Of a DNA stretch of 64,000 bases, positions 3,345-32,498 are shown piece by piece. The notes under the pieces were generated by a model. That model made no database searches, had not been told where the DNA came from, and worked only from the letters and a program-made list of their open reading frames with translations. Made by a program: the position numbers and the translations under genes. The stretch covers positions 9,176,001-9,240,000 of the forward strand of contig NZ_CP114283.1 of NCBI RefSeq assembly GCF_027107535.1. Reading direction: 5' to 3'. Positions within the stretch are counted from its first letter, which is position 1. Each line of letters starts with the position of its first letter. This stretch comes from Streptomyces aurantiacus (lineage in GTDB: Bacteria; Actinomycetota; Actinomycetes; Streptomycetales; Streptomycetaceae).

Positions 3345-4106
3345 CTACTTCTTCTTGCCCTGGTTCTTCACGGCCTCGATGGCGGCCGCCGCCGCCGACG
3401 GGTCCAGGTAAGTTCCGCCCGGGTTCAGGGGCTTGAACGCGGCGTCGAGTTCGTACGCGAGCGGGATGCCCGTCGGGATGTTCAGGCCCGCGATGTCCTC
3501 GTCCGAGACGCCGTCGAGGTGCTTGACGAGGGCGCGCAGGGAGTTGCCGTGGGCGGCGACCAGAACCGTGCGGCCCGCGAGGAGGTCCGGGACGATGCCG
3601 TCGTACCAGTACGGGAGCATGCGGACGACGACGTCCTTCAGGCACTCCGTGCGGGGGCGGAGCTCCGGCGGGATCGTCGCGTAGCGCGGGTCGTCCGACT
3701 GGGAGAACTCCGTGCCGTCCTCGAGCGGGGGCGGCGGGGTGTCGTACGAGCGGCGCCACAGCATGAACTGCTCCTCGCCGAACTCCGCGAGGGTCTGCGC
3801 CTTGTCCTTGCCCTGGAGGGCGCCGTAGTGGCGCTCGTTCAGGCGCCAGGAGCGGTGGACCGGGATCCAGTGGCGGTCCGCGGAGTCCAGCGCGAGCTGC
3901 GCCGTGCGGATGGCGCGCCTCTGGAGCGAGGTGTGCAGCACGTCGGGGAGCAGGCCGGCGTCCTTCAGCAGCTCACCGCCGCGGACTGCCTCCTTCTCGC
4001 CCTTCTCCGTCAGGTTGACGTCCACCCAGCCGGTGAACAGGTTCTTCGCGTTCCAGTCGCTCTCGCCGTGGCGGAGGAGGATCAGCTTGTACGGTGCGTC
4101 GGCCAT
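3345..4106 (-). CDS. gpmA: 2,3-BPG-dependent phosphoglycerate mutase
   Basis: 253 residues, the usual length of the dPGM family. It interconverts 3- and 2-phosphoglycerate in glycolysis and gluconeogenesis in the cytosol. [10 protein letters not shown] carries the phospho-accepting His of the RHG motif; [21 protein letters not shown] and [13 protein letters not shown] (second catalytic His) follow in order. The C-terminus ends NQGKKK. The start is ATG 4106. The last codons double as one copy of the 18-bp repeat seen at 1369, so the gene's 3' end may have served as an integration site while the product stayed intact. Confidence 0.95.
3346..3363. other. attR-like repeat at gpmA 3' end
   Basis: This is the second copy of the 18-bp repeat at 1369-1386. 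It overlaps the stop and last five codons of gpmA. See the entry at 1369. Confidence 0.45.
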
Positions 4107-4360
4107 GGCCCCGAGCGTAATCGAAGCCTCAGATCGCCCGCGCGCCTGCCCGGGAGTCGGACAGACGACGGAAGCCGACCGGCACCGCTACCGGCACGGC
4201 CGCCACCGCCGACCACCACCCACCGCCCACCACCCGCCGTCAGTTGACAGGTTCTGTTAATTGAGTGGCCCCTGCCGAAGCCGTACTCGTAAGTTGTGCT
4301 CACCGCCCGAGCCACTTACACGGCTTGCGTCGCTCCGCTCACCTGTACCTGGGGGTCCCG

Positions 4361-5614
4361 ATGTCACTCACGTCCTTGAGACGTGCTGCCCGTGAGACCG
4401 TCTCCGGGCTCCCCCGCGAGTTCTGGTGGCTGTGGACCAGCACCCTCGTGAACCGGCTCGGCGCGTTCGTCGCCACCTTCATGGCCCTCTATCTCACGCT
4501 GGAGCGCGGCTACTCCGCCTCGTACGCCGGACTCGTCGCCTCGCTGCACGGGCTCGGCGGAGTCGTGTCCTCCCTCGGTGCGGGCGTGATGACGGACCGG
4601 CTCGGACGGCGGCCGACCCTGCTCATCGCCCAGTCCTCCACCGCGGTCTCCGTCGCACTGCTCGGCTTCATGCACCACCCGGTCGCCATCGCCGCCGTCG
4701 CCTTCCTGGTGGGGATGACGAGCAACGCCTCCCGGCCCGCCGTGCAGGCGATGATGGCCGACATCGTCCGGCCCGAGGACCGCGTCCGGGCCTTCTCCCT
4801 CAACTACTGGGCGATCAACCTGGGGTTCGCCGTCTCCTCCATGGCGGCCGGGTTCATCGCGCAGTCCAGTTACCTCGCCGGGTTCCTCATCGAGGCCGGG
4901 ATGACGATGGCCTGCGCGATCGTCATCTTCGCGAAGCTGCCCGAGTCGCGGCCCGAGCGGGTTCCGAAGGCGGCCGACGAACCCGATGTCGGCCTCGGCA
5001 CAGTCCTGCGTGACGGGCGCTTCATGGGCGTCGTCGGGCTGTCCTTCCTCGTCGCGCTGATCTTCCAGCAGGGGTTCGTCGGGCTGCCGGTGGCGATGGG
5101 CGAGGCCGGGTTCACGCCCGCCGACTACGGCATGGCGATCGCGGTCAACGGCGTCCTGATCGTCGTCCTGCAGATCCCGGTCACCCGTTTCATAGAGCAC
5201 CGGGATCCACGGCGTCTCCTCGTCGTGTCGTCCCTCCTCGCCGGGTACGGGTTCGGGCTCACCGCCTTCGCGGGCTCGGTCGGCGTCTTCGCGCTGACGA
5301 TCTGCGTGTGGACCCTCGCCGAGATCGTCAACGCGCCCACCCAGACCGGCCTCGTCGTCCGGCTCTCCCCCACGCACGGCCGCGGCCGCTACCAGGGCAT
5401 GTACACGATGTCCTGGTCCGTCGCCGCTCTCGTCGCGCCCGTGATGTCCGGTGTCGTCATCGACCGGTACGGGGCGCAGTGGCTGTGGGGCATGTGCGCG
5501 GTCGTCGGTACGGTGGCCGGAGTGGGGTACGGGATGCTGATGCGGCGACTGCCGGACGAGGAGCCCTTCGCCGAGGTGCCCCTGGCCGCGAAGCCCGAGG
5601 TCAGCCCGGCGTAG
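4361..5614 (+). CDS. MFS transporter (drug efflux type)
   Basis: 417 residues from ATG 4361, with about 12 transmembrane helices. The loop between helices 2 and 3 has GVMTDRLGRRPTL, the MFS signature DRxGRR. The protein opens with FWWLWTSTLVNRLGAF and resembles MdtH-like proton-driven exporters. The frame is open further upstream, but the residues before 4361 are not membrane-protein-like. It is divergent from gpmA, and the two share the 254-base gap 4107-4360. The substrate cannot be told from sequence. Confidence 0.85.
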   Translation: MSLTSLRRAARETVSGLPREFWWLWTSTLVNRLGAFVATFMALYLTLERGYSASYAGLVASLHGLGGVVSSLGAGVMTDRLGRRPTLLIAQSSTAVSVALLGFMHHPVAIAAVAFLVGMTSNASRPAVQAMMADIVRPEDRVRAFSLNYWAINLGFAVSSMAAGFIAQSSYLAGFLIEAGMTMACAIVIFAKLPESRPERVPKAADEPDVGLGTVLRDGRFMGVVGLSFLVALIFQQGFVGLPVAMGEAGFTPADYGMAIAVNGVLIVVLQIPVTRFIEHRDPRRLLVVSSLLAGYGFGLTAFAGSVGVFALTICVWTLAEIVNAPTQTGLVVRLSPTHGRGRYQGMYTMSWSVAALVAPVMSGVVIDRYGAQWLWGMCAVVGTVAGVGYGMLMRRLPDEEPFAEVPLAAKPEVSPA

Positions 5615-5664
5615 ACCGGTCCCCACCGCTCGTAGGTCTCGGCCCCGCAGGCCGTCCTCGCGTC

Positions 5665-6186
5665 TCAGTGGTGCATCCGTGCACCTTTCACCACCTTGTC
5701 CACCGCGTTGCGGGGGCCGTACACCGCGAGGCCGACCAGGTCCAGGTCGGCGGTCGGTACGGCCCGTACCGCCGCGCGGTTGTCGCGGTCGTTGCCCGTG
5801 GTGAACAGGTCGGAGGTGAAGAGCGCTCTGGGGAGCGCCCGGGACAGCACGCGCGTGTGGGCCGCCGTCAGCGTCTCCTTCGTGCCCTCGAAGACCAGGA
5901 CCGGCTGGCGGAACATCGACAGGTAGCCGACACCGTCGGCGTCCTCGTACGGCTCTCCGACCACCTCGGGCACCGCCGTGCCGAGCCCGCTCACGAGGAA
6001 CGCGGTCACGTTCAGCCGCTGCCACGGCTCCAGGTCCTCCCGCAGCAGGACGGCGATCTTGGTGTCGAAACGGACGGGTCCGGGAGCGGTGGTTTCGGGG
6101 CCGGCGGATTCGAGGGCTGCGGATTCGGAGGCGGTGGGCGCGGGGGCGGAGGCGGCGGGTTCGGTGCGCGAGGCGTCGGCGTTCAT
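5665..6186 (-). CDS. DUF2000 family protein
   Basis: 173 residues from ATG 6186. After a low-complexity Ala/Ser/Pro N-terminus of about 40 residues comes KIAVLLREDLEPWQRLNVTA, then FLVSGLGTAVPEVVGEPY, the signature start of DUF2000. No catalytic motif is known for the family. It is divergent from an AraC regulator with only 49 bp between the starts, so co-regulation is likely. Function is unknown. Confidence 0.75.
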   Translation of the reverse strand: MNADASRTEPAASAPAPTASESAALESAGPETTAPGPVRFDTKIAVLLREDLEPWQRLNVTAFLVSGLGTAVPEVVGEPYEDADGVGYLSMFRQPVLVFEGTKETLTAAHTRVLSRALPRALFTSDLFTTGNDRDNRAAVRAVPTADLDLVGLAVYGPRNAVDKVVKGARMHH

Positions 6187-6235
6187 GCTTCGAGACTGCC
6201 GACCCCCGTACGACCTCGTCTTGTACGTTCTTTGC

Positions 6236-7033
6236 ATGGTGGCCCAGCGAGAAGTCTCCGCCTGGCGCCCGCGCGTGCCGGGTGTCGTGGAGGTCTTCCA
6301 CGCCCACTTCACGGAGTACGCGTATCCGATGCACGTGCACGACGCGTGGACGCTGCTGATCGTCGACGCCGGAGCCGTGCGGTACGACCTCGACCGGCAC
6401 GAGCACGGCACCCCCGACGGCACGGTCTCGCTGCTCCCGCCGCACGTTCCGCACAACGGCTCGCCGGTCACCCCGTACGGCTTCCGCAAACGCGTCCTGT
6501 ACCTGGACCTCAGCAGGCTCGACGAGACGTACATCGGCGCGGCCGTGGACACGCCGGAGCTCCTCGATCCGGTGTTGCGCCGGCGCGTCGGGCAGCTGCA
6601 CACCGCCCTCGCCCAGCCCGGTGACGAGCTGGAGGCGGAGAGCAGGCTGACCCTGATCGGCGAGCGGCTGCGCGGGCATCTGAGGCCCGGGCCCGCCCCG
6701 GACACCCTGGCGGCCGACCACCCGCTCGCCCACCGCCTGCGCGAGCTCCTCGACGAACGCCTCCTGCGGGGCGTGACCCTCCAGGAGGCCGCCGCTCTCG
6801 TGCACGCGCACCCCGCCCACCTGGTCAGGGCGTTCAGCGGCGCCTTCGGCATACCGCCGCACCAGTACCTGATGTCGCGTCGGGTGGAGCACGCCCGGCG
6901 GCTGCTGCTGGAGGGCCGCGCGCCGGGCGAGGTGGCGGCCGAGACCGGCTTCTACGACCAGTCGCACCTGAACCGGCACTTCAAGCGGCTGGTCGGGGTG
7001 GCTCCCGGGCGTTACCGCGTCAGCTCGCGCTGA
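6236..7033 (+). CDS. AraC-family transcriptional regulator
   Basis: 265 residues from ATG 6236. The N-terminal cupin (about 10-150) has AYPMHVHDAWTLLIVDAGAV and LPPHVPHNG, the histidine-rich pattern of AraC sensor domains. The C-terminal double HTH (about 165-262) has LQEAAALVHAHPAHLVRAFS and AAETGFYDQSHLNRHFKRLV. It is divergent from the DUF2000 gene and its 3' end overlaps the convergent beta-helix gene by 22 bp. The adjacent DUF2000 gene is a plausible target. Confidence 0.88.
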   Translation: MVAQREVSAWRPRVPGVVEVFHAHFTEYAYPMHVHDAWTLLIVDAGAVRYDLDRHEHGTPDGTVSLLPPHVPHNGSPVTPYGFRKRVLYLDLSRLDETYIGAAVDTPELLDPVLRRRVGQLHTALAQPGDELEAESRLTLIGERLRGHLRPGPAPDTLAADHPLAHRLRELLDERLLRGVTLQEAAALVHAHPAHLVRAFSGAFGIPPHQYLMSRRVEHARRLLLEGRAPGEVAAETGFYDQSHLNRHFKRLVGVAPGRYRVSSR

Positions 7034-18056: not shown

Positions 18057-18703
18057 TGTCCCGATCCGAGCCACTGACTCCCTTACGGGTCAAAGGGTTT
18101 CCGATGCGGTTCACGGACATGCGCACCAGGCTGACATCCGACGCCCGACGGTTCCACCGGATTGATTTCGCCGAGCGCTGCCGATATCACGCACCAGGAA
18201 AGCCAAGGCATTGCCCGCACGTGCTCATTCCCCTAATATCTTCTCCGTGACTGCCGGGTCGGCCATGTGCCAAGAATCAGTAGGGTTCCCGGCCTCCGAG
18301 TGAGGCCCGGGCGGGCCAGAGGGCCGCCCTTTCCCCCGCGCGTGCCGAGCACGCGTAGCGAGCGCCGCACCGCGACACGCCAAGGCGCGCCAGGCTGGCC
18401 GAGCGCACTGTATCCGCGTACCCACGTGCCCCGTTGCCACGTACGCGCATCCACGTGTCGCCCCCTGGGCACACCGACGCGACCACGCCTGCGTACAGCG
18501 TGCGTCCACGTGTCCGCACGGTCCGCTCGCGCGTATTCGTACGGCCCGTTTCCGCGCGCCCGCGCGTCTCGCCACCGTCGGCATCCACGCCGCTCCCCAC
18601 TCCAGCGCTCACCGTTCCATCACCCCGACACGGGCGGGGTCAAATTCGCCGCGTGGCGATTCCCCATGCCCTGATCCGGAATCCACCGAGAAGAAAGAAG
18701 AGA
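18057..18703. other. 647-bp region without a convincing gene
   Basis: Near 18287-18312 there is an imperfect stem (CCCGGCCTC/GAGGCCCGGG). From 18420 to 18515 the sequence is rich in CACGT-centred hexamers, with CCACGTG written four times or nearly so. The last 60 bases are relatively AT-rich, with AAGAAAGAAGAG as the RBS region of the next gene. Short frames here have no RBS or Streptomyces codon pattern. Confidence 0.5.
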
Positions 18704-19564
18704 ATGCCCAACGACTTCAACCAGCAGGTCATCGAAGAATTCCGCGCCAACGCCGGGGAGGTCGGCGGCTATTTCGAGGGCGCCCGGCTGATCCTGCTCA
18801 CCACCACGGGGGCCCATTCCGGCGAGCGCCGCACCACCCCTCTCGGCTACTACCCCGACGGCGGCGGCAGCGTGCTGGTCATCGCCTCGGCCGGCGGCGG
18901 GCCGAAGCACCCGGACTGGTACCACAATCTCGTCGCGCGACCCCAAGTCACCGTGGAGACAGGGGTGTTCACGTACGAGGCCAAGGCCGAGGTGCTGACG
19001 GGCGCCGCACGCGACGAGGCCTTCGCCCGCGCGGTCGAGGCCGACTCCGGCTGGGCGGAATACCAGGCCGGTACCCGTCGCGTGATCCCGGTCGTCGCCC
19101 TCCACGAGATCGCCGGCGACGGCCCGCCGAACGTGAACGCCTCCTCGATGGGGCAGGCGGTCAAGGCGATCCATGACGCGTTCCGCCGCGAACTCACCCT
19201 GATCCGCAAGGAGATCGGTGAGGCGGGTCCCACGCTCGGCGCCCAGCTCCGCATCAACTGCCTGACCTTGTGCCAGGGCCTGCACAACCACCACACCGGC
19301 GAGGACCTCGCCATGTTCCCCTTCCTGGCCGACCACCACCCGGAGCTCTCCCCCGCCCTGGACCGCCTGCGCGAGGAACACGTACAGATCGCCGCCCTGA
19401 CCGCGGAGTTGAAGCAGGTCATCGGTACGGCTCAGGCGGACCCCGCACACGTACGCGAGGAGGTCGAGCGCCTCACCGCCGCACTGGAGGCGCATCTGAC
19501 CTACGAGGAGGAGCAGTTGATCCCCGTGCTCGACGCTCCGGCAGGGTCCGGCGACGCCCCCTAG
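18704..19564 (+). CDS. Deazaflavin-dependent nitroreductase-hemerythrin fusion
   Basis: 286 residues from ATG 18704. Residues 1-135 match the Ddn/F420 split-barrel family: GGYFEGARLILLTTTGAHSG, RTTPLGYYPDGGG and GGPKHPDWYHNLVARPQVTVE. Residues about 150-275 are a hemerythrin-like four-helix bundle with GLHNHHTGEDLAMFPFL (HxxxE), REEHVQIA and EAHLTYEEEQLIPVL, giving the His/Glu set for a di-iron site. An F420-linked oxidoreductase tethered to an O2- or NO-binding iron centre suggests a redox or nitrosative role (inference). No signal peptide is seen. Confidence 0.85.
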   Translation: MPNDFNQQVIEEFRANAGEVGGYFEGARLILLTTTGAHSGERRTTPLGYYPDGGGSVLVIASAGGGPKHPDWYHNLVARPQVTVETGVFTYEAKAEVLTGAARDEAFARAVEADSGWAEYQAGTRRVIPVVALHEIAGDGPPNVNASSMGQAVKAIHDAFRRELTLIRKEIGEAGPTLGAQLRINCLTLCQGLHNHHTGEDLAMFPFLADHHPELSPALDRLREEHVQIAALTAELKQVIGTAQADPAHVREEVERLTAALEAHLTYEEEQLIPVLDAPAGSGDAP

Positions 19565-22708: not shown

Positions 22709-25015
22709 TCACCGCGGTGACGGGGAACGGCCGGCCGGCGGAAGGGGCGCCACCGAGGACGCGGGCACGGCCTCGACCGGCCGCCCGCCCCCTGAGGCGG
22801 GACCGCGGTCCCGCCTCTCCGGCCCCGGGCCGCCCCCGGCCCTGGGCGACGGACGCAGCGGAAGGCCGAGCGAGGCTGTGGCGGCTCGGAGAGTCATCGC
22901 GTACGAGTCCACCGCCCGGCGGACGTTGGGGGCGTCGAGGCCGGCCCCGGTGACCATGCGGTCGAGATCCACGTAGGCGGAGCGGACCAGCTCGATCCAG
23001 CGGTAGACCCGCCAGTCCTTGCGCCAGTCGCGCGTATGCGTGGCGGGCAGTAGCTTCTCCCACGCCCGGAAGAGGCGGTCCCGGATCTCCGGCCGCGTGG
23101 GGGTCAGATGCAGATGCCGGACCAGGTCGTACAGGGGGTCACCGACCATCGCCATCTCCCAGTCGATGATGGTGAGCGCGAAGCCGTCGTCCCGGCGGAC
23201 GAGGTTCCATGGATTCAGGTCGCCGTGCAGCAGTGTCGGTTCCCGGAACGTCAACTCGTGCCTGGCGAGGATCTCCTTAAGCCGGGCCGCGTCGGGCAGA
23301 CCCATCGTCCGGGCGAGTTGCTGCGACTCGCTCGGCAACTGTGCGACGAACAGGACCAGTTGGTCACTGAGCCAGTGGTGGAAGTCCGCCTCGCGGGCCG
23401 TCGGATCCAGCTCGCTGAAATCGACGTCCGTCAGCGCGGCGAGCTGGCCCACGAGACCGTCCGCCTCGTGCGGGAGGAGGCCGAGGACCGGATGGTTGGG
23501 GGGCTGGTCGCTGTTCAGCGGCCCCACGTAGGTGTGGATGGCGAACAGGTCCTCGGGATGGCTCTCGCCCAGCGCGAGTACGCGCGGAGCCGTCACCGCC
23601 ACCCGGGACCGCTCGATCGCCCGGAGCACCGCGTGCTCACTGAGGAAGCGCGGCTCACGGCGTGCCGGGGACACGATCTTGCGGCGCACCACGACCGGGA
23701 AGTCGACGTCCGGGACTCGGACCACCGTGTTGAGGTGGGCCGTGCCCTTGAACACCCGGCCCGTGGGTGCGGCGCCCTCCGCGACCAGGGCGTCGTGCAC
23801 CGCGGCCGGAGGGAACCCGGGGTGCCTCTCGACGCGCCTGTCCCGCTTCCAGCGGACGACCGGCTGCCCCCCGCGCTGACGCCATGACGTCTGCCACCGG
23901 TGGAGCACCCGCTCAACCTCGAGCTCCTCCGGCACGGCCGACAGCCCGAGCGGCTCCGCCGCGGACGCCAGCGCCCGGCGCACCGTGGCCACCGCCTCGG
24001 TCAGCCGCTCGTCGTCGTGCGCGTCCTGCAGCGACCTCGCGGCCCGTATCACGTCCGGAAAGACCGACTGCGCGTGCTCGAAGGCGATGTAGTGACGCAG
24101 GTCCCTGGTGAGGCCGTTGGTCGCCGTCGGCTTGATCGTCTGCATGGCCTGCGCCCAGGCGCTGATCGCCTCGTCCCGCTCCCAGTCCGAGTACCGCATC
24201 CGCACCAGGTGCGTGGCGAGGTCGTGCAACGGGTCGCCGTAGGTGGCCAGTTCCCAGTCGACACAGACCAGATGGGGGTCTCCGTGGGTCGTCACCACCA
24301 CGTTGTCCCGGTGCAGGTCGGCGTGGAGCAGGCTGTACGGCCTGCGGGCCATGGCGGGAACCCGCGCGGCCAACCTGGTCAGGGCGTCCTCCGGGACACC
24401 CAGGGCGGCGAAGAGCCCACCATAAGCAGCCCAATTGGGCTGACGGATCTGGCGGTCGGCAAGCTGCGTCAGCATGCGCAGAAAGCCCTGGCTGTCCTTG
24501 TCGTTGCGCGGCCAGTCGGCAGGCAGCGGCGGGAGTGCCTCCCTGCGCACCTGCGACATCCGGGCCAGGACCTCGGCCAGGGCGCCCATCGTGATGCCGT
24601 CGACCGGTTTGCCGCTGGGACACAGCCGGGAGAGCGGGATGCCTTCCACGTGACTGTGGACGGCCGAGTCCCTCCGCGTGGCGAGACAGCGCGGTACCTG
24701 CGGCAGGATGCCGCGCGCGGCGTCGAGGATCCGCGCCTCGTGCCGCCAGGTCCTGACCACGACCGGCAGGGCTTCGGGCCTGCGGATCCGTACGACGACC
24801 GGCGTGCCCGCCTCGGCGTCGACGTACCGCGCCATGGCCTCCGTCAGGGGCAGCACGTAATTGCGGTGGTGATGGCCGTGGCTCATCACTCCGAACTGTT
24901 TCGCCCGCCGTACGAACTCGTCGTAGGCGTCATCGGCGGCACGTCGCTCCCGTGAGACTGGCCCGGAAGCAGGATGTGCGCCCACGGGCCACTCCTGGAG
25001 CTGGAAGGTGTGCAC
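22709..25015 (-). CDS. Tandem double APH-type phosphotransferase
   Basis: 768 residues from GTG 25015. Two complete aminoglycoside-phosphotransferase/choline-kinase folds lie in one chain. Domain 1 (about 50-300) has LLHADLHRDNVVV and LVCVDWELATYGDPLHDLATHL. Domain 2 (about 420-690) has LLHGDLNPWNLV and LTIIDWEMAMVGDPLYDLVRHL. Both keep the catalytic Asp/Asn loop and the DW(E) metal motif, so both could be active. The last about 55 residues are Pro/Gly/Arg-rich. It lies downstream of a GntR-type regulator on the same strand, with a palindrome over its start. The phosphorylated substrate is unknown. Confidence 0.85.
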   Translation of the reverse strand: MHTFQLQEWPVGAHPASGPVSRERRAADDAYDEFVRRAKQFGVMSHGHHHRNYVLPLTEAMARYVDAEAGTPVVVRIRRPEALPVVVRTWRHEARILDAARGILPQVPRCLATRRDSAVHSHVEGIPLSRLCPSGKPVDGITMGALAEVLARMSQVRREALPPLPADWPRNDKDSQGFLRMLTQLADRQIRQPNWAAYGGLFAALGVPEDALTRLAARVPAMARRPYSLLHADLHRDNVVVTTHGDPHLVCVDWELATYGDPLHDLATHLVRMRYSDWERDEAISAWAQAMQTIKPTATNGLTRDLRHYIAFEHAQSVFPDVIRAARSLQDAHDDERLTEAVATVRRALASAAEPLGLSAVPEELEVERVLHRWQTSWRQRGGQPVVRWKRDRRVERHPGFPPAAVHDALVAEGAAPTGRVFKGTAHLNTVVRVPDVDFPVVVRRKIVSPARREPRFLSEHAVLRAIERSRVAVTAPRVLALGESHPEDLFAIHTYVGPLNSDQPPNHPVLGLLPHEADGLVGQLAALTDVDFSELDPTAREADFHHWLSDQLVLFVAQLPSESQQLARTMGLPDAARLKEILARHELTFREPTLLHGDLNPWNLVRRDDGFALTIIDWEMAMVGDPLYDLVRHLHLTPTRPEIRDRLFRAWEKLLPATHTRDWRKDWRVYRWIELVRSAYVDLDRMVTGAGLDAPNVRRAVDSYAMTLRAATASLGLPLRPSPRAGGGPGPERRDRGPASGGGRPVEAVPASSVAPLPPAGRSPSPR
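22794..22817. repeat. Perfect 24-bp palindrome in phosphotransferase 3' end
   Basis: GAGGCGGGACCG followed by its exact complement (22794-22817). It contains the 14-mer also found at 22658. It lies inside the low-complexity tail of the phosphotransferase gene. Confidence 0.6.
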
Positions 25016-25020
25016 ACCTT
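25005..25020. promoter_or_regulatory. Palindrome over phosphotransferase start
   Basis: AAGGTGTGCACACCTT is a perfect 16-bp palindrome. It contains the GTG start codon of the phosphotransferase. A protein bound here would cover the start and, if the mRNA is leaderless, the transcription start. Confidence 0.6.
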
Positions 25021-25072
25021 AGTGCGCGCACGAACCCCTCACGACCGGAGTCGGAGGATCCCAGGTCTCAAT

Positions 25073-25089
25073 GAGGTGTAGGACACCTC
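25073..25089. promoter_or_regulatory. Second AGGTGT/ACACCT dyad
   Basis: GAGGTGT-AGG-ACACCTC shares the arms AGGTGT and ACACCT with the palindrome at 25005, 53 bp upstream of it, between the GntR-type stop and the phosphotransferase start. Two such sites suggest one regulator binding both. Confidence 0.55.
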
Positions 25090-25117
25090 GCGGGACGCGC
25101 GTGGCGTACGGCGTCGG

Positions 25118-26056
25118 TCACTCGGAGAGGTGCGTCCAGACGGACTCGAACCACGCCTTCATGCCGGCCACGTAGACGGAGTGGTGGGAGCCCGGGTCGT
25201 CGTCCACGTCGAAGCGCGACAAGGTGGCGCCGAGTCCGAGGACGTCGAGGGCGTCGATCCGCTCGCCGTCCTCGAACTCGATGGGCCGTGGCATCACCTG
25301 GTAGACGCCGTGAAGCGCCTGGACACCGTTGAGCAGGTAGAGCTTGAACGCGGGCGCCAGGGGCGCGCGCCGTATCCGGATGTCGCAGGACGGGACGAGG
25401 CCGTCCACTCGCAGGTCGCGGAAGACGGCGTTCAGTGAGGCGGTCTGCCGGCCGGTGATCTCGCGAAGGCGCTCGCGCGGTCGTGGATCGCTCGGGTCGT
25501 CGGCGTTCCGCGGGTACGGGAGGTCCACGTCGTCGGAGGGGAGCAGCAGGCGCAGGGTGATGCTCTGAGGGGTGATCGCCCCCCGCCTGATCCGCTCCTC
25601 CTGCAGCCTTATGTGGGCGTCCAGGGACTCCGAGGTCAGGGTGTAGACGTCCAGGGTGACGTCGGGCCGCTCGAAGGCCTCGCTGATGAGGGGGCGCAGG
25701 GTCACTTCCTCATGCGGCCGGCCACCGCGCTCCCCAGGCGCCTGCGTCTCCGTCTCGGCCTGCGCCTGCGCGGGCAAAGACGCAGGCGCGGACACGGACG
25801 CCGCCGCGGACACGGGCGGGACCTTGACCACCCGGGATCCGCTGCCCTGCCGCGAGGCGATCAACCCGTTGTTCCGCAGCTCCCTCAGCACGCGCTGCAC
25901 GGTGTCACGGGAGACGTCGAAGTCCTCGGCGAGCTGACGTTGGGGAGGCAGCAGGGACCCGAGCGGATGGGAGCCGTCGGCGATACGAGCCCGCAGCGCC
26001 TCCAGAACACGCTCGAACTCCCTGCCACCGCCGTCGACCGCCCGCCCTTCAGTCAC
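25118..26056 (-). CDS. GntR-type regulator A, unassigned C-domain
   Basis: 312 residues from GTG 26056, with no clear RBS. The N-terminal GntR winged helix (about 12-80) reads LEALRARIADGSHPLGSLLP, PQRQLAEDFDVSRDTVQRVL, then NNGLIASRQGSGSRVV. A low-complexity linker follows (about 85-120). The C-domain (about 125-312) contains LDVYTLTSESLDAHI, ITLRLLLPSDDVDLPYP, KLYLLNGVQALHGVY and MKAWFESVW, which recur in regulators B and C but are not the usual FCD or UTRA domains. It is divergent from a 66-residue membrane protein and upstream of the double phosphotransferase. Confidence 0.85.
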   Translation of the reverse strand: MTEGRAVDGGGREFERVLEALRARIADGSHPLGSLLPPQRQLAEDFDVSRDTVQRVLRELRNNGLIASRQGSGSRVVKVPPVSAAASVSAPASLPAQAQAETETQAPGERGGRPHEEVTLRPLISEAFERPDVTLDVYTLTSESLDAHIRLQEERIRRGAITPQSITLRLLLPSDDVDLPYPRNADDPSDPRPRERLREITGRQTASLNAVFRDLRVDGLVPSCDIRIRRAPLAPAFKLYLLNGVQALHGVYQVMPRPIEFEDGERIDALDVLGLGATLSRFDVDDDPGSHHSVYVAGMKAWFESVWTHLSE

Positions 26057-26243
26057 AGGGCGACCGTACCGCTTTCAGTCCACGAACAAACCCCTTCCGG
26101 TCAAGTGGCCGGCCCAACTGGACTGCCAGTTAAGGGATCAGACCGGGTGGGCATAACCAATAGGAGTCAACCAGCCCAATTGGATGGCTAGTTGGCCGGT
26201 TGGTCGGTTGGTCGGTTGGCCGGAAGCTGACAGGGGTGGGCGA
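26057..26243. promoter_or_regulatory. Divergent control region A
   Basis: It carries AACTGG-ACTG-CCAGTT (26116-26131), a CAACCAGCC/GGCTAGTTG dyad with one mismatch centred on CCAATTGG (26169-26194), and three tandem 8-bp units of GGTTGGTC type (about 26198-26222). All share CCAAY or GTTGG half-sites with regions B and C. The last unit ends about 20 bp before the start of the small protein. Confidence 0.6.
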
Positions 26244-26444
26244 ATGGTTTTCTACGAACTGATCGGGATGGCGGTCCGTTTCATCCTCACGGAGCTGGTG
26301 CACCAGAGACTGGGCCTGCTGGGCCTGTTGCTCGTGGCGCTCGCCGTGGTGGCCGTACGAGCGGGACAGCTGCGCCAGGCGTGGTGGGCGCCACTGCTCC
26401 TCTTCGTGATGCTGATGCTTCAAGGGTGCGCCCTGAGCAGGTGA
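26244..26444 (+). CDS. Small hydrophobic membrane protein A
   Basis: 66 residues from ATG 26244, with AGGGGTGGG as RBS. Two or three hydrophobic segments (about 4-20, 24-40, 46-62). It aligns by eye with the 62- and 61-residue proteins at 28323 and 29778: a Glu about 15-18 residues in, then Q/W-R/K-L/Y-G-x-x-G, then LAV or LTV. Its 3' end overlaps the convergent HAD gene by 25 bp. It is divergent from GntR-type regulator A. Function is unknown. Confidence 0.65.
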   Translation: MVFYELIGMAVRFILTELVHQRLGLLGLLLVALAVVAVRAGQLRQAWWAPLLLFVMLMLQGCALSR

Positions 26445-27163
26445 AGCACCGGCTCCAGCGAGGTGACGATGTGGGCGGGCTCCACCTCGGCCTTCCGAAG
26501 CGCCTCGTACTTGCGCTCGTTACGCGCGTAGCCCAGGAAGTGGGTGCCCGCGGCCTGCGCGGCCACGTAGTCCGACGGGGCGTCGCCGATCATCAGCGAG
26601 GACGAAGGTGCGGCCCCCATGGCGCTCAGCGCCTGGTTGAGCCGGTACGGATCCGGCTTCATCAGGTGGAGCTCCTGCGTACGGCCGTAGACATGCGGGT
26701 CGAAGCACGAGGTGAGCCCTCGGCCGGCGAGATACGCGTACGCCGTCCGCGCGGAGTTGTTGGTGACGATGGCGAGCCGGGCTCCCACGGCGGTCCAGGT
26801 CCGTATCAGCGGATCGGCGAAGGCCGTGGGCATGGCGGAAGCCGCGGCCCTCAGCTCGTGCTGGGTGAGTCTCTCCTCCAGCTCGGCCGCCAGGTCGCTG
26901 CCCGGGTGACGCTCGTTCACCGCGCGGAGAACGACATGCGGATCGGGATCAACCCGCTCGGCCGGGGTGAGCAGGCCGTACAGCCCCCGGTCCCCGAGCC
27001 ACCGCACCTGCTCGTCGGCGATCAGCTCCGCCCTGTGCCCCGCGAACAGCCGACAGATCGGCCCGTCGAAGTCGAAGGCCACGTAACGAGCGAGCTTGAT
27101 CAGTTCTCGTAGTTTCTCTGTCTCCGCTGTCACCTGTTCAGTCTGCGCCGTATCACTAGTCAC
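26420..27163 (-). CDS. HAD-family hydrolase
   Basis: 247 residues from GTG 27163. VAFDFDGPICRLFAG is motif I (DxD), LAIVTNNSARTAYAYL motif II, LMKPDPYRLNQAL motif III Lys and LMIGDAPSDYVAAQAAG motif IV. A helical cap lies at about residues 30-110. The fold matches phosphoglycolate-phosphatase-like phosphatases. Its GTG shares one base with the TAG stop of GntR-type regulator B (TAGTG), so the two are translationally coupled. As a likely phosphatase beside a double kinase, it may act on the same metabolite (inference). Confidence 0.87.
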   Translation of the reverse strand: MTSDTAQTEQVTAETEKLRELIKLARYVAFDFDGPICRLFAGHRAELIADEQVRWLGDRGLYGLLTPAERVDPDPHVVLRAVNERHPGSDLAAELEERLTQHELRAAASAMPTAFADPLIRTWTAVGARLAIVTNNSARTAYAYLAGRGLTSCFDPHVYGRTQELHLMKPDPYRLNQALSAMGAAPSSSLMIGDAPSDYVAAQAAGTHFLGYARNERKYEALRKAEVEPAHIVTSLEPVLHLLRAHP

Positions 27164-28044
27164 TAGGAGAGTGTCAGGTCCGTCGTGATGGTTTCCCAGA
27201 GGGCGTCGAACCACTTCTGGGACTGCTCGACGAAGGCGGCGTCGCGCTGGCCGGCCCGCTCCTCGAAGGAGAACAGGAGGGACTTGGAGCCGAGCGCGTC
27301 GTACATGTCGAGCATGCCGCTGTCTCCGGCCTCCTCCCGCCTGGCGATCATGTAGTACGCCATCAGCGCCTCGATGCCGTTGAGCAGGTACAGCTTCACC
27401 GGCGGGGTGAACGGAAGCGCCCGGAACGTCACCCGGACGTCGATGCCGTGGGAGGAGCGCAGGGACCTGAGGTTGTGGCGCAGGACGTGGCCCTGGGCGT
27501 TGCGCATCTCCAGCCACCGCTGGTGGACGGGGTCCTCGCCGCCCTCCTGCACCTCCACCGAGACGGGGAAGGCGAGGTTGATGTCCCGGGAGGGGAGCAG
27601 GATGCGGACGTCGATCGACTCCGGACGGAGCTTGCCCTCGTGGATCAGCCGGACCGGTTCGCCGAGGGCCAGCATCAGGGTCTCGGCCGTGAGGCACGCG
27701 GCGTCCACCCGGACGTGCGGCGCGGCGAACGCCTCCACCAGCCGCGGCGCCAGCCCCACCATCGTCGGCTGGGGTTCGTCCCGGGTCGGGGTGACCTCCG
27801 CGATCCGGGGCGGGCTTCCCTTGCTGACGTTGCTGAGCAGTCCGTCGTCCTGAAGCGCGCGCAGGGCCTGGCGGACCGTGCCCCGCTCCACCTCGAACTC
27901 CTCGGCGAGCTCGGCCTGCGTGGGCAGGCGGTCGCCGGCGCGCAGGTCGCCCGCGCGGATGCGGTCCCGCAGGATGTCGGCGATCTCCTGCGGCGAGAGC
28001 CTTCTGCTGCCGTTCACTGCCACGTTCTCCTGGGTCACGACCAA
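27163..28044 (-). CDS. GntR-type regulator B, unassigned C-domain
   Basis: 293 residues if started at TTG 28044 (GTG 28038 is the alternative). The winged helix is PQEIADILRDRIRAGDLRAG, DRLPTQAELAEEFEVERGTV, RQALRALQDDGLLSN. The C-domain (about 95-293) has VRVDAACLTAETLMLAL, IDVRILLPSRDINLAFPV, HGIDVRVTFRALPFTPPVKL, YLLNGIEALMAYYMIARRE, MLDMYDALGSKSLLFSFEE and FVEQSQKWFDALWETI. It is about half identical by eye to regulator C. It is cotranscribed with the HAD gene and divergent from a 62-residue membrane protein. Confidence 0.88.
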   Translation of the reverse strand: MVVTQENVAVNGSRRLSPQEIADILRDRIRAGDLRAGDRLPTQAELAEEFEVERGTVRQALRALQDDGLLSNVSKGSPPRIAEVTPTRDEPQPTMVGLAPRLVEAFAAPHVRVDAACLTAETLMLALGEPVRLIHEGKLRPESIDVRILLPSRDINLAFPVSVEVQEGGEDPVHQRWLEMRNAQGHVLRHNLRSLRSSHGIDVRVTFRALPFTPPVKLYLLNGIEALMAYYMIARREEAGDSGMLDMYDALGSKSLLFSFEERAGQRDAAFVEQSQKWFDALWETITTDLTLS

Positions 28045-28322
28045 ACGCTACAACTTTGGCCCATCTAAGGGGAGTTGTTTGGAAGTTGTTTATAGCTAGG
28101 GACCAACTGGGGATAACTTAACCATAGTTGGTTGCCAACTTGGTGGAGATGGCGGAAGGTTTACCTCCTCTCGCCTGTAGTTGGCAGCTGGGAAGGCTTC
28201 GCACCTCCCCAGCACCAGGACTTCACTCCCGCACTACGGCGCCGCACCACGGCTCCGCACCGCACCACAGCACCATCGCACTCCTCCCGCCCGCCCCCGC
28301 AAGACCCGAAGGAGGATCCACC
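28045..28322. promoter_or_regulatory. Divergent control region B
   Basis: AGTTGG-TTG-CCAACT (28126-28140) is the main dyad, 82 bp from the regulator start. AGTTGTTT occurs at 28073 and 28084, 11 bp apart, and CCAACT again at 28103. The segment around the regulator start (28036-28056, CACGACCAAAC-CTACAACTT) is repeated almost exactly before regulator C. The rest, to the AGGAGG RBS of the small protein, shows no gene. Confidence 0.65.
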
Positions 28323-28511
28323 ATGCCCGCCCTAGCCCTTCTCTCCGCCCTCTTCGTCGTCGGTTTCGAGCAGTTCGTCGAGTGGCGGTACGGCCCGAGC
28401 GGCGTCCTCGGACTGCTGCTGCTCACTGTGGGTCTCAAGACGAAGAGCCCCACGTGCAGCTCGGTCGGAGCCGTCGTCCTCGCCCTGATGTTCGCGGGGC
28501 CGGCCCTGTGA
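28323..28511 (+). CDS. Small hydrophobic membrane protein B
   Basis: 62 residues from ATG 28323, with GAAGGAGG as a strong RBS. Two hydrophobic stretches (about 2-17 and 26-38, then 47-60) are separated by FEQFVEWRYGPSGVLG and VGLKTKSPTCS. It is clearly related to protein C at 29778 (shared E-Q, YGxxGV, VGxKxK, GAVxL) and more distantly to A. It is divergent from GntR-type regulator B. It could be a membrane effector, a signalling peptide or a small toxin; nothing in the sequence decides. Confidence 0.7.
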   Translation: MPALALLSALFVVGFEQFVEWRYGPSGVLGLLLLTVGLKTKSPTCSSVGAVVLALMFAGPAL

Positions 28512-28661
28512 CCTGCGAGAACCGCCCGATCCGCAGGACCGGCACCATCCGCACGACCCGCGCAGGCCGCTCGGGCGGCACCGCCCGCACCAGCGGCGTG
28601 ATCTGCGAGGACGATCCACCGGAGGATCCGGAGAAGCTCCGGACCGGACATGTGGGAGACC

Positions 28662-29573
28662 TCAGCGCGTGAGCACCAGCTCCGAGCTGATGGTCTCCCA
28701 CAGCGCGTTGAACCACAGATGCGACTGCTCCACGAACGTCATGGCCCGCAGGCCCTCACCCTGCTCGAAGGGGAACAGCATCGACTGCGTCCCCTCCGCG
28801 TCGTACATCTCCAGGTACTCGTGGTCGATCTCCTCGCCGCGCCGCGACAGCGTGTAGTAGGCGAAGAGCGCCTCCGCCCCGTTGAGCAGGTACAACTTCA
28901 CCGGCGGCGTGAACGGCAGAGCCCGGAACGTGACGTGTACGTCGATGCCGTGCGTCGCCCGTAACGCCAGCAGGTTGTGCCTGAGGACCTGGCCTTGGGC
29001 GTTGCGCTGGGCCAGCCAGCGCCGCTGGATCCGGTCACCGTCCTCCGCCGCGTCCACCGCCGCCGGGAAGGCGAGGTCGATGTCGCGGGACGGCAGCAGC
29101 ACCCGGACGTCGATCCTGGCTGGTTTTGTTCGCCCCTCGTGGATGAGACGCAACGGCTCGCCCATCGCGAGCGTGAGGGAGACGGCCGTCAGGCACAGCG
29201 CGTCGATCTCCACGTGAGGCGCCGAGAAGGCGTCCGTGATGCGTGAGGCCAGTGCCACCATGGTGGGCTGCGGCGGAGCCTCCGGCCCGGTCAGGGCCCT
29301 GTCCGCGTCCTGCGCGACGGTCGCCGGGCTCCCCTTGGACACGTTGGACAGCAGGTGCTCCGTCTGCAGGATGCGCAGCGCCTGGCGGACGGTCCCGCGC
29401 TCGACACCGAACTCGTCGGCCAGCCTGGCCTGCGTGGGCATGCGCTCTCCAGCCCGCAGTTCACCGGACCTGATCCGGCTGCGCAGCTCGTCGGCCACCT
29501 CTCGGTGTGACCTCTGTGGCCGTTGTGACCTCTTCCGCCCATTGACGGCGACGTGTTCCGGGTCCACGACCAA
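28662..29573 (-). CDS. GntR-type regulator C, unassigned C-domain
   Basis: 303 residues if started at TTG 29573; GTG 29567 is in frame and equally possible. The winged helix reads HREVADELRSRIRSGELRAG, ERMPTQARLADEFGVERGTV, RQALRILQTEHLLSN. The C-domain repeats the elements of B: VEIDALCLTAVSLTLAMGEP, IDVRVLLPSRDIDLAFP, VTFRALPFTPPVKLYLLNGA, EALFAYYTLSRRGEEIDHEY, MYDAEGTQSMLFPFE and FVEQSHLWFNALWETIS. It has no downstream partner on its strand before small protein B. It is divergent from small protein C. Probably a duplicate of unit B. Confidence 0.88.
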   Translation of the reverse strand: MVVDPEHVAVNGRKRSQRPQRSHREVADELRSRIRSGELRAGERMPTQARLADEFGVERGTVRQALRILQTEHLLSNVSKGSPATVAQDADRALTGPEAPPQPTMVALASRITDAFSAPHVEIDALCLTAVSLTLAMGEPLRLIHEGRTKPARIDVRVLLPSRDIDLAFPAAVDAAEDGDRIQRRWLAQRNAQGQVLRHNLLALRATHGIDVHVTFRALPFTPPVKLYLLNGAEALFAYYTLSRRGEEIDHEYLEMYDAEGTQSMLFPFEQGEGLRAMTFVEQSHLWFNALWETISSELVLTR

Positions 29574-29653
29574 ACACTACAACTTCGCGCCATCTTTGGG
29601 CAGTTACAGAGAAGGTGGTTATGAGACGCATCCAAGCGGAGATAACTTCATTG

Positions 29654-29670
29654 AAGTTGGTCACCAACTT
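29654..29670. promoter_or_regulatory. 17-bp palindromic operator in region C
   Basis: AAGTTGGT-C-ACCAACTT, 8-bp perfect arms around one base, 81 bp from the regulator C start. Region B has the matching AGTTGG/CCAACT dyad at the same distance (82 bp), within flanks that are also similar (ATAACTT before, AACATGG or AGATGG after). Confidence 0.7.
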
Positions 29671-29777
29671 GAGCAACATGGTCAAACTTCCCAGGGGTTG
29701 GCCGCCAGAGTCGCAAGCGTCGACCAGGTGGATCGGTCCCAGCGGGGGTCCGTCTCCCGTCCCCAAGGAGGGACCGC

Positions 29778-29963
29778 ATGCCGCTCATCGCCATCGTCGT
29801 CGCCGCCCTCGTCATCGCCCTCGAGCAACTGCTCCAGGTGAAGTACGGAGTGATGGGCGTCATCGCCTTCGTCGCCCTCGCCGTCGGCATCAAGGCCAAG
29901 AACTCAATGATCGGCGGCATCGGGGCAGTGATCCTCGTGGTGCTGCTCGCCCAGTCCGGCTGA
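29778..29963 (+). CDS. Small hydrophobic membrane protein C
   Basis: 61 residues from ATG 29778, with AAGGAGG as RBS. Hydrophobic segments at about 2-17, 25-38 and 45-58, with ALEQLLQVKYGVMGVIAF and VGIKAKNSMIGGIGAVIL between them. It is related to proteins A and B. It is divergent from GntR-type regulator C and followed by a strong terminator, so it is a single-gene unit. Function is unknown. Confidence 0.7.
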   Translation: MPLIAIVVAALVIALEQLLQVKYGVMGVIAFVALAVGIKAKNSMIGGIGAVILVVLLAQSG

Positions 29964-29989
29964 TCGGGCGCCACCGTCCGGCAGTCCGG

Positions 29990-30032
29990 CCGACCGGGCT
30001 CCCTTCCGGAGGGGAGCCGGGAGCCCGGTCGG
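29990..30032 (+). terminator. 14-bp perfect stem-loop
   Basis: CCGACCGGGCTCCC (29990-30003) and GGGAGCCCGGTCGG (30019-30032) pair perfectly around a 15-nt loop, 27 bp past the stop of small protein C. Confidence 0.85.
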
Positions 30033-30204
30033 TCCGCACCACCGCGGACAGGTTCCACGTCCGCGGAAGTACGGCAGAACAGAACGACCGGCCGTACGGC
30101 AGTACCGGAACACAACTGAATCGCTACGGATCGACGCATCACAAGATCAACCCACCACTGGATCAACCGAAACGGAACGGAGGAAGCCCCGGCCACAGGC
30201 CGGC

Positions 30205-30258
30205 GTCAGAAGCAGAGGTCAGAAGCAGAGGTAAGAAGTCAGAAGCAGGACTCAGAAG
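30205..30258. repeat. 13-bp tandem repeat
   Basis: GTCAGAAGCAGAG occurs twice head to tail (30205-30230) and again with changes to 30258. It reaches the last codons of the acetyltransferase gene on the minus strand. Probably a slippage repeat. Confidence 0.6.
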
Positions 30259-31508
30259 ATGTCCGGGCACCACGGCCGCCTGGACGTGCGCAGCAGGGCG
30301 TCGGCCACCTCGGCGGCGCCCGCTCGTTCTTCCCGGACCCGCCCCAGCGCCGCGAGCCGGACCACGGACTGGTCCCCGAGCCACAGCGCCCCCAACTCTG
30401 CTGCGGGCAGCGTGAGTTCGGCACTCTCGCCGGTCCGGGTGCAGCTCGCGCCCTCGGGTGAGGCGTCCAGCCGGTACCGCCCCGCCGCCGGCCCGTTCCC
30501 GTCGACCACCTCCAGGACGAGGGCGCCCGTCGCCGCGTACGCACGCGCCTCGAGTGCCGCGACGACGTCCAGGATCCGCACCCACAGCCAGTCCGCCTGC
30601 GAGGTGATGGCGGCCGCGCGCGGGTCCGGCAGCAGATGCGGCAGCAGGTCGTCCGGAGCCCGCCAACCCGTCCTGACCGCCGTGACCCAGTCGACCGAGC
30701 AGACGTACTGCCACAGCGCGCGTTCCGCGGCCGGCGAGACGGCGATCAGATCCCTGACCTTCGCCGTTTCGAGCGGCTGCTTCGCATCCCCCCAGCGGTC
30801 GTCCACCGTGTACGTGAGCAGGCCCTCGGCCTCCCCCCGCGCATCGCGGTACACCGCGTGGAAGGGCTCGGTCCACGGGGCCCGGTCCAGGACCACGGCG
30901 CCGGTGGCGACCTGCCACCACCGCTCGTTCCGGTCGATCGCGCCCGGCTGCGCCCGCCTGAGCCGCTCATGCAGCTCGGGTCCGGTCTTCCGTACGTCGT
31001 CGGCGTCGACGAGGTCGATACGGCCGCCGTCGTCAGGGCCGGCCCAGCGGGGGTCGAGCCCCGCCCGCGGGACGTCGATCGTCCACTCGGCGGCCGAGGT
31101 GGCCGCCCCGAACCCGTACCGCCCGTAGATCGGGTACTCGGCGGCGATCAGCGTCGCCACGACGTCGCCGCGTTCCTTCGCGGCCGCGAGGTCCCGGGCC
31201 ATCATCCGTGTGAGGATCCCGCGTCGGCGGTGGGTCGAGGTGACGGTGACGTTCGAGATCGCGTCCGCCCGCACGGTCGCACCGCCCACCGCCGTGATCT
31301 CCTGCGGGAACGACCGGAAGGTCCCCACGCACCGCTCCCCGTCGAACGCTCCCAGCGTCCGCTCCGGCTCGATGTAGGTCCGGCGGTCCGCGACCTCCGA
31401 CTCCGACACGCTCGGCGGCCGCAGGAACCCGGTGTTCAGCGCGCGGATCCACTCCGGGATCTCGCCGTCACGGACGGGGCGTACGTCGATGTCCTCGCGC
31501 GAACTCAT
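30252..31508 (-). CDS. Eis-type GNAT acetyltransferase
   Basis: 418 residues, the usual length of Eis-family proteins (two GNAT folds plus an SCP2-like C-domain). The first GNAT has [17 protein letters not shown] (acetyl-CoA R-x-x-G-x-L loop) and [16 protein letters not shown]. The central part has [15 protein letters not shown], and the C-terminal domain ends in PDIF, so the terminal carboxylate typical of the family's catalysis is present. Eis proteins acetylate amines, including aminoglycosides. Start ATG 31508. Single-gene unit. Confidence 0.87.
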
Positions 31509-31672: not shown

Positions 31673-32338
31673 CTACACGAGCAGGTCGTCGACCTGGGCC
31701 TCGCCCTCGCGATACCTGCGGGCGATCTCCGCGCTGCAGTCGTCGGCCGTGCGCTGCAAGTGCTGCCGCCGCCGCGAAACCTGCTGCTCGTACCGCACGA
31801 GCCGCCCCATCGCGGCGTTCAGCTCCGGATCCGTACGCGCCTCCAGGTCGGACAGTTCGACCTCGGCGAGCATGTCGGCGGCCAGCCGCCGGTACTCCTC
31901 GCTGTGCGGCGTCCCCACGGTCAGGTGCCGCGCCGACGAACGGTGCCTGGCGGGCGCGTCCGTGAGGATCTCCGACAGCCGGTCGACGACGGACGCCTCC
32001 TCGGCGGCCGGGGTCTCACGGTCGCCCGCCCGGCCCCTCGGAGGTTCCGTGCGCCGCCCCAGCTCGGCCCGCAGGATGTCGATCCGCCCCTGCAACAGGC
32101 GCCGTACGTAACTGAGATCGGCTTCGTCCCGCTGCGCGTCCCGCCGCAGGGTGCGCAGTTCGGGCAGCCGCAGGAGGCCCAGATCGGGCGCCGGCTCCGG
32201 CATCGGACTGTCCGTTCGCTGGGTGGGCGGACGCGTCGTGACCGGACGCCCCGCTGTCGGTGACGGCTGCGGTGACGGAGGCTCCCCCCGGCTCAGTGAA
32301 ACGAACCCGGGTGACTGCCCCGTACTCGGTGTGCTCAT
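31673..32338 (-). CDS. rsiG: RsiG, c-di-GMP-binding anti-sigma factor
   Basis: 221 residues. Two copies of the c-di-GMP motif E(X)3S(X)2R(X)3Q(X)3D are legible: EADLSYVRRLLQGRID (about residues 73-88) and EQQVSRRRQHLQRTAD (about 180-195), each in a long helix. This is the established RsiG signature: an antiparallel coiled-coil hairpin that, with c-di-GMP, holds the sporulation sigma factor WhiG. The N-terminal about 45 residues are disordered. Neighbours dtd, ygfZ and nur fit the known core location. whiG is not in the window. Confidence 0.92.
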   Translation of the reverse strand: MSTPSTGQSPGFVSLSRGEPPSPQPSPTAGRPVTTRPPTQRTDSPMPEPAPDLGLLRLPELRTLRRDAQRDEADLSYVRRLLQGRIDILRAELGRRTEPPRGRAGDRETPAAEEASVVDRLSEILTDAPARHRSSARHLTVGTPHSEEYRRLAADMLAEVELSDLEARTDPELNAAMGRLVRYEQQVSRRRQHLQRTADDCSAEIARRYREGEAQVDDLLV

Positions 32339-32498
32339 GTGCCTCAACCGTCCCCTCGACCGGCGCGTGTGAGCATCGTGCCACCCCAAGTGGCCGCTAT
32401 GTGACCGAGTGCCCCCGATCGGCCCCAGATGGACGGTTAAGGATCAATAAGAAAGGCCCCGTACGGAGGCCGGTCCGGCGCACGGCATGATGGTCCGT

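Follow-up and report, generated by a model that had tools for sequence, protein, structure and literature searches.

A 64,000-nucleotide stretch of the Streptomyces aurantiacus genome (contig NZ_CP114283.1, positions 9,176,001 to 9,240,000), referred to here as the window and numbered from its first base, carries three GntR-type regulator genes on the minus strand, R1 (25118..26056), R2 (27163..28044) and R3 (28662..29573), each lying opposite a small plus-strand gene. These small genes, S1 (26244..26444), S2 (28323..28511) and S3 (29778..29963), encode hydrophobic proteins of 66, 62 and 61 amino acids (aa), respectively, the last with three predicted helices. An earlier inspection made without database searches, the sequence-only reading, had described three regulators each opposite a hydrophobic protein of 61–66 aa. 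The open reading frames (ORFs), the divergent position of S1–S3 and a GntR helix-turn-helix (HTH) in every regulator are confirmed, the Pfam model PF00392 matching the N-terminus above its curated cut-off (E 1.7e-15 for R1, 5.8e-18 for R2 and 5.1e-17 for R3). R2 and R3 are 64% identical, R1 and R3 33%. The likeness claimed among the small proteins stands for S2 and S3 (34% identity) and is weaker for S1, which shares 20–23% with either, so that layout, hydropathy and an E...G..G pattern are what link it to the other two. What lies at the locus is a duplicated pair of regulator and small membrane protein with its own control regions.

Each of these control regions contains a palindrome between the divergent genes. 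The R1/S1 region carries CCAATTGG at 26176..26183, a position read from the sequence. The operator candidate of the R2/S2 region, AGTTGGTTGCCAACT (28126..28140), is a perfect AGTTGGNNNCCAACT site, and that of the R3/S3 region, AGTTGGTCACCAACT (29655..29669), extends to AAGTTGGTCACCAACTT and forms a second perfect site. In the 9.9-Mb genome there are exactly two perfect AGTTGGNNNCCAACT sites, and it is telling that they fall in the R2/S2 and R3/S3 control regions; with both perfect sites here the circuit looks local, and weaker targets are possible. An Rfam scan of 25000–30300 gave no match at E<=0.1.

A gene arrangement conserved across species, with palindromes specific to clades

A profile of the C-terminal domain of the regulators matches 78 of 121 Streptomyces genomes (E<=1e-8). 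The 73 match clusters contain three regulators in 21 cases, two in 18, four in 4 and one in 30, and the recurrence of the three-regulator layout across species argues against a recent local event. Seventy-two of these clusters were fetched, with only the matches among those listed being used, and together with the window, two other loci of its genome and four plasmid stretches they make up 79 loci; 158 regulators were analysed, 15 of the 173 frames having been excluded because no HTH could be detected in frame with them. By a hidden Markov model (HMM) seeded from the same control regions as those scored, an S-family ORF lies divergently upstream of 108 of the 158 regulators, more than chance would produce. 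The S gene is present at 45/48 loci of the R2 clade, 22/44 of the R3 clade, 21/31 of the R1 clade and 20/35 of the others.

The palindromes follow the regulator clades. The pattern AGTTGG-N1-3-CCAACT occurs in all 44 R3-clade control regions, including the 22 that lack S3, and in 36 of the 48 R2 regions (shuffled mean 0 in both cases); of the 12 R2 exceptions, inspected by eye, 11 carry a changed version of the palindrome and one (L063) has none. CCAATTGG is found in 23/31 R1-clade regions (shuffled mean 0.11) and in none of the 92 R2/R3 regions. Judging from these counts, the palindrome classes have diverged in step with the regulator clades.

A protein search with S3 gave 91 protein clusters, the window's own among them, and any names displayed for these are of the hypothetical or uncharacterized kind. 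Across the S2/S3 type, 16 diverse sequences share the invariant residues M1, E16, G24, G37, G49 and L53. Codon position 2 has the fewest substitutions, and the median pairwise ratio of nonsynonymous to synonymous substitution rates (dN/dS) lies below 1 in all three S sets, although these values are rough owing to GC-rich, saturated comparisons; the pattern indicates that S evolves as protein-coding sequence. The structural model of S3 places helices at residues 2–23, 25–39 and 43–59, with a mean predicted local distance difference test score (pLDDT) of 90.7 in the best of five models and 64.7 in the worst.

Co-occurrence of the two genes, which the sequence-only reading had proposed as a check, is found in both directions. 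An S2/S3-type profile run on the 121 genomes detects S in 65, with 64 having a regulator as well and one having S only, while 14 have a regulator only and 42 neither, a comparison made by hand and one in which genomes holding S1 alone can escape the profile. Searching from S2 (best 80 of 183 relatives) gave 79 loci with a divergent regulator and one that ends at a contig edge, 154 of the 156 S matches in these loci being so placed. The queries were S2 proteins of regulator-linked loci and the collection overlaps the 121 genomes (for example, L146 and L058 lie on equally long contigs at overlapping positions), making this a reverse test and not an independent sample. For comparison, the same genome was sampled at 15 further GntR-type matches with flanks of about 1.5 kb, two of the stretches overlapping; these control stretches showed no S (E<=0.1) and no C-domain (E<=0.01). 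The pairing is nonetheless incomplete. The earlier description had allowed that it would be undermined if the regulators were often met without a small hydrophobic gene divergent from them, and this is partly what was found, 50 of the 158 lacking S by the HMM. The window's genome itself has five full-length family members, one of them on a smaller contig (C1), and two count against the pairing: one has no S (L005/L022), and that on the smaller contig (L003/L021) lies opposite a longer hydrophobic ORF of 78–81 aa which the S HMM misses.

The single genome with S only (G080) bears on the suggestion of the sequence-only reading that the pair might be toxin-like, S being a membrane-active toxic peptide silenced by the regulator. 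Here an intact S ORF (L229, 4355–4543) follows a purine-rich stretch and stands between eis and a zinc-alcohol-dehydrogenase-like gene, the latter named by reading the sequence; the surrounding 12 kb showed no regulator, HAD or APH gene and neither of the palindromes, nor was any C-domain match found genome-wide (E<=1e-8). A toxin-like system would fit with a small hydrophobic peptide encoded next to a regulator gene and sharing its palindrome, and with the presence of regulator relatives on elements known for Kor-type repressors, following the KorSA/SCO3932 logic in the passages of PMC8584621. Against this, among the 65 genomes with S there is one in which no regulator was detected, and the 22 R3 loci that keep both regulator and intact palindrome have lost S3, a combination that does not favour a toxin held down by the regulator. 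Neither PADLOC nor PHROG gave a match for S1–S3, and most carriers hold the module at the same chromosomal place. The toxin-like suggestion is thus weakened, and of the explanations weighed here it is the least probable.

Neighbouring genes and mobile relatives

Two further genes, which the earlier description did not record, belong to the layout. The first (26420..27163, minus strand), between R2 and S1, is assigned to the HAD-IA phosphatases by PF00702/PF13419 (E 1.2e-14 and 2.8e-13), and it begins with a GTG that shares one base with TAG, the stop codon of R2, suggesting that the two genes may be translationally coupled; over the R2-clade genes with HAD the median gap is -6. The second (22709..25015, minus strand), downstream of R1, encodes an APH-family kinase whose single frame contains two APH stretches (PF01636). 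In 25 of 64 loci the open frame covering APH reaches at least 650 aa, and it is shorter in the others. Of the 158 regulators, 149 have a HAD match within 2.5 kb and 101 an APH match within that distance. Directly behind the regulator (<150 bp), HAD is found in 64/158 cases, comprising 44/48 of the R2 clade, 20/35 of the others and none of the R1 and R3 clades. Several single-regulator loci (L101, L105, L107, L112, L113, L115, L116, L122 and L124) read simply as S divergent from R-HAD-APH, an order that may represent the ancestral unit.

Most carriers have the module at the same chromosomal site, next to rsiG, a developmental regulator gene whose product is an anti-sigma factor of WhiG. In the window, an RsiG-like gene (31673..32389, minus strand; PF22802, E 1e-32) lies 1.7 kb from S3, and across 78 loci an rsiG neighbour is found in 64, namely 43 of the 44 R3 loci and 21 others, and a gene for an Eis-like acetyltransferase in 39 R3 loci and 20 others. 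Elsewhere in the window, a single plus-strand frame (18434–19564) combines an F420H2-dependent quinone reductase domain with a hemerythrin domain.

Few matches to the regulator came from outside the genus. The C-domain profile matches 139 of 197 genomes of the order, 136 of them Streptomyces; at the level of the phylum it finds 17 in 346 genomes, including 16 Streptomyces, the absence outside Streptomyces being soft because this search scored only nine candidates per genome. All four genomes of other genera with a regulator have R-HAD and no S match below 1e-3. One of their loci (L232) also has an APH gene and, some 240–260 bp upstream of the regulator frame (5309–6214), an unmatched divergent hydrophobic frame of about 57–64 aa, possibly an S analogue. 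Plasmid records with a regulator match number eight, of which four were opened; one of these (L056) has S, and three (L054, L055 and L057) lack it. On the plasmid of Streptomyces sp. NBC_01724 (L055), R-HAD-APH (3956–6984) adjoins genes annotated as a radical SAM protein and as HaaN, the acetyltransferase of a cyclophane RiPP (ribosomally synthesized and post-translationally modified peptide), and the module may have been recruited there to a biosynthetic cluster.

One branch of the regulator tree (FastTree local support 1.0) unites the two Nocardia plasmid regulators with five Streptomyces copies (L120, L123 and L126–L128). The Nocardia regulators (L054, 4836–5807; L057, 4823–5791) adjoin transfer genes and are followed by a glycosyltransferase family 2 gene, without HAD. 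FtsK/TraSA-like genes lie near the regulator in L120 and L128 and a pSAM2-type RepSA gene in L123, with no element gene shown in L127. Opposite the regulator in L120, L126 and L128 stands a gene of 110 aa without a Pfam match, which is presumably pra-like. HAD follows the regulator in all five Streptomyces copies, whereas S, by HMM, is absent from all seven members and APH gave no match in the branch. A phage origin was rejected, R3 having no match in 50,697 phage records (1e-10) and S1–S3 none in PHROG. A defence system was likewise rejected on a PADLOC scan, which gave nothing for S1–S3, HAD or APH and one weak match to the HTH region of R3 (E 0.0057).

Across elements, plasmids and other genera, HAD is thus kept more often than S, and the real unit could be R-HAD, with S a loosely held Streptomyces addition using the same control region. 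The five element copies, the four other-genus genomes, the retention of the palindrome where S3 is missing and the genome that retains S alone are all consistent with this. S is however present at nearly all R2 loci and evolves as coding sequence, 79 of the 80 loci found from S2 have a regulator, both Nocardia plasmid copies lack HAD too, and L232, among the four other-genus loci, carries an unmatched hydrophobic frame in the S position, for which reasons this explanation is regarded as unlikely, though the strongest of the competing ones. Alternatively, the genes might form a metabolic or resistance operon in which the regulator senses a compound phosphorylated by APH and dephosphorylated by HAD, S serving as a transport or envelope accessory. 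The frequency of APH and HAD near the regulators and the plasmid copy of R-HAD-APH, close to an annotated RiPP acetyltransferase gene, point in this direction, but the element branch has no APH match and none lies directly behind R2 or R3, leaving such an operon distinctly improbable. The element branch also allows a bolder proposal, namely a new GntR regulator class, with a dead sensor of the phospholipase D (PLD) fold and a phosphatase coupled to it, that works on integrative elements as a Kor-like transfer switch and drives a tiny membrane protein on the Streptomyces chromosome, the chromosomal module being a domesticated element-control or conjugal-immunity circuit whose S acts at the membrane. 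This would be speculative, with only a slim chance of being correct.

Regulator fold and proposed circuit

The C-terminal two thirds of the regulators (~200 aa) have no Pfam match of their own in R1–R3 (E<=1), and among their NCBIfam matches the 25 best of 38, 31 and 27 in the three proteins all fall below cut-off and end by residue 122. In the AlphaFold2 model of R3 (mean pLDDT 83.7) this domain is predicted to adopt a PLD/TrmB-like fold, agreeing with the PLD superfamily fold, and R1 and R2 are taken to have a PLD-like C-domain too; a second fold listing was dominated by the HTH. The HxK(x4)D motif of PLD enzymes is degenerate, reading xxK(x4)N, and its His is absent in the 154 readable of the 158 regulators, ruling out a PLD superfamily enzyme and making it probable that the C-domain acts as a sensor. 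A sensing system, as the sequence-only reading had suggested, is plausible given this predicted fold. Membership of the TrmB family was rejected. The TrmB HTH model scored 24.3 bits for R1 and 14.4 bits for R2, both below the cut-off of 25.6, and gave nothing for R3 at E<=1; searching PDB sequences with the C-domain gave nothing for the single sequence and one chance row for the profile, with no TrmB chain at E<=10, and what the two have in common is the predicted fold alone.

These observations suggest, with somewhat better than an even chance, a locally autoregulated Streptomyces sensor module kept at one chromosomal place. In it, R would be a dimeric GntR-type repressor, and the C-domain, with its predicted fold and dead HKD motif, would most likely be the binding site of a small ligand that is perhaps phosphorylated. 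Bound to the palindrome, R would repress both its own operon (R-HAD, or R-HAD-APH in the simple loci) and the divergent S gene, as the position of the palindrome between them suggests, and ligand binding would turn on both sides. As a phosphatase/kinase pair, HAD and APH would produce the ligand, remove it or respond to it, and S, putatively a membrane peptide of three helices, the first with a conserved Glu, would provide an output at the membrane. Following duplication of the unit, R2 and R3, with their common palindrome class, would probably cross-regulate, R1 having a class of its own.

Several points weigh against this autoregulated module. R3 loci that keep palindrome and regulator after losing S3 imply that S3 is not essential to the circuit, and the dN/dS of S1, calculated from 8 sequences, is the highest of the three. 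In a genome of this size any 12-base pattern should turn up about once at most, so that the lack of perfect sites elsewhere says little; allowing one mismatch gives 19 sites per strand versus 14 for a reversed control, and among the 17 imperfect AGTTGGNNNCCAACT sites, 13 were fetched, 12 lying inside long coding frames and one outside. The 12 R2 regions without the strict pattern suggest that binding may tolerate changes and that more targets may exist. A scan of 28000–30100 for sigma-70-like promoters found none, so that repression cannot be tied to a promoter and the regulators might instead activate. The module matters because, with the regulator and S so widespread in the genus, it pairs an unusual sensor-like domain with an uncharacterized family of small membrane proteins; the operator and the two genes together are small enough to be tested directly, and the module would connect a chromosomal circuit with regulators of integrative elements.

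Comparison with known systems

Canonical GntR subfamilies include FadR, HutC, MocR, YtrA and AraR, with an operator consensus that is a palindrome of the GT-N-AC type. The HutC, FadR, MocR and YtrA subfamilies are marked by their effector domains, namely UTRA, FCD/FadR-C, an aminotransferase-like domain or a short C-domain. R1–R3 belong to the GntR superfamily by their DNA-binding head and share with these subfamilies both the PF00392 head and a GT-N-AC type palindrome, but the effector domains are not seen in their C-terminal part; none of the corresponding Pfam domains appears at E<=1, and placement in HutC, FadR, MocR or YtrA was accordingly rejected. The GntR head likewise distinguishes them from the archaeal TrmB and TrmBL2.

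The sequence-only reading knew of no published description of such pairs, and none was found in searches of open PMC papers, judged by titles or the beginnings of abstracts; passages of PMC13118837 and PMC11237479 do not describe them. Among described systems, KorSA/SCO3932 and Pra of pSAM2-type elements offer a close parallel, in that a GntR-headed regulator stands divergent from its neighbour and binds a common intergenic region, according to the passages of PMC8584621, as R1–R3 would do at their candidate operators. The element-branch relatives adjoining FtsK/TraSA-like or RepSA genes add to the likeness with the system in those passages. SCO3932 of Streptomyces coelicolor, for which deletion attempts failed, is there described as a HutC-type regulator with a UTRA domain, on which ground it was rejected as a family member. 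R1–R3 differ in their predicted PLD-like C-domain and in the chromosomal copies lying opposite S, and they were not accepted as kil-kor regulators of this kind, having no UTRA domain, with the window copies opposite S at a fixed chromosomal place and only one branch beside element genes. The Pif/Nudix and regulator-phosphohydrolase clusters of integrative elements, as portrayed in parts of PMC3218068, differ in using Nudix where HAD is found here, and most of the present copies hold a fixed chromosomal place, but they share with the module a regulator adjoining a small-molecule phosphohydrolase.

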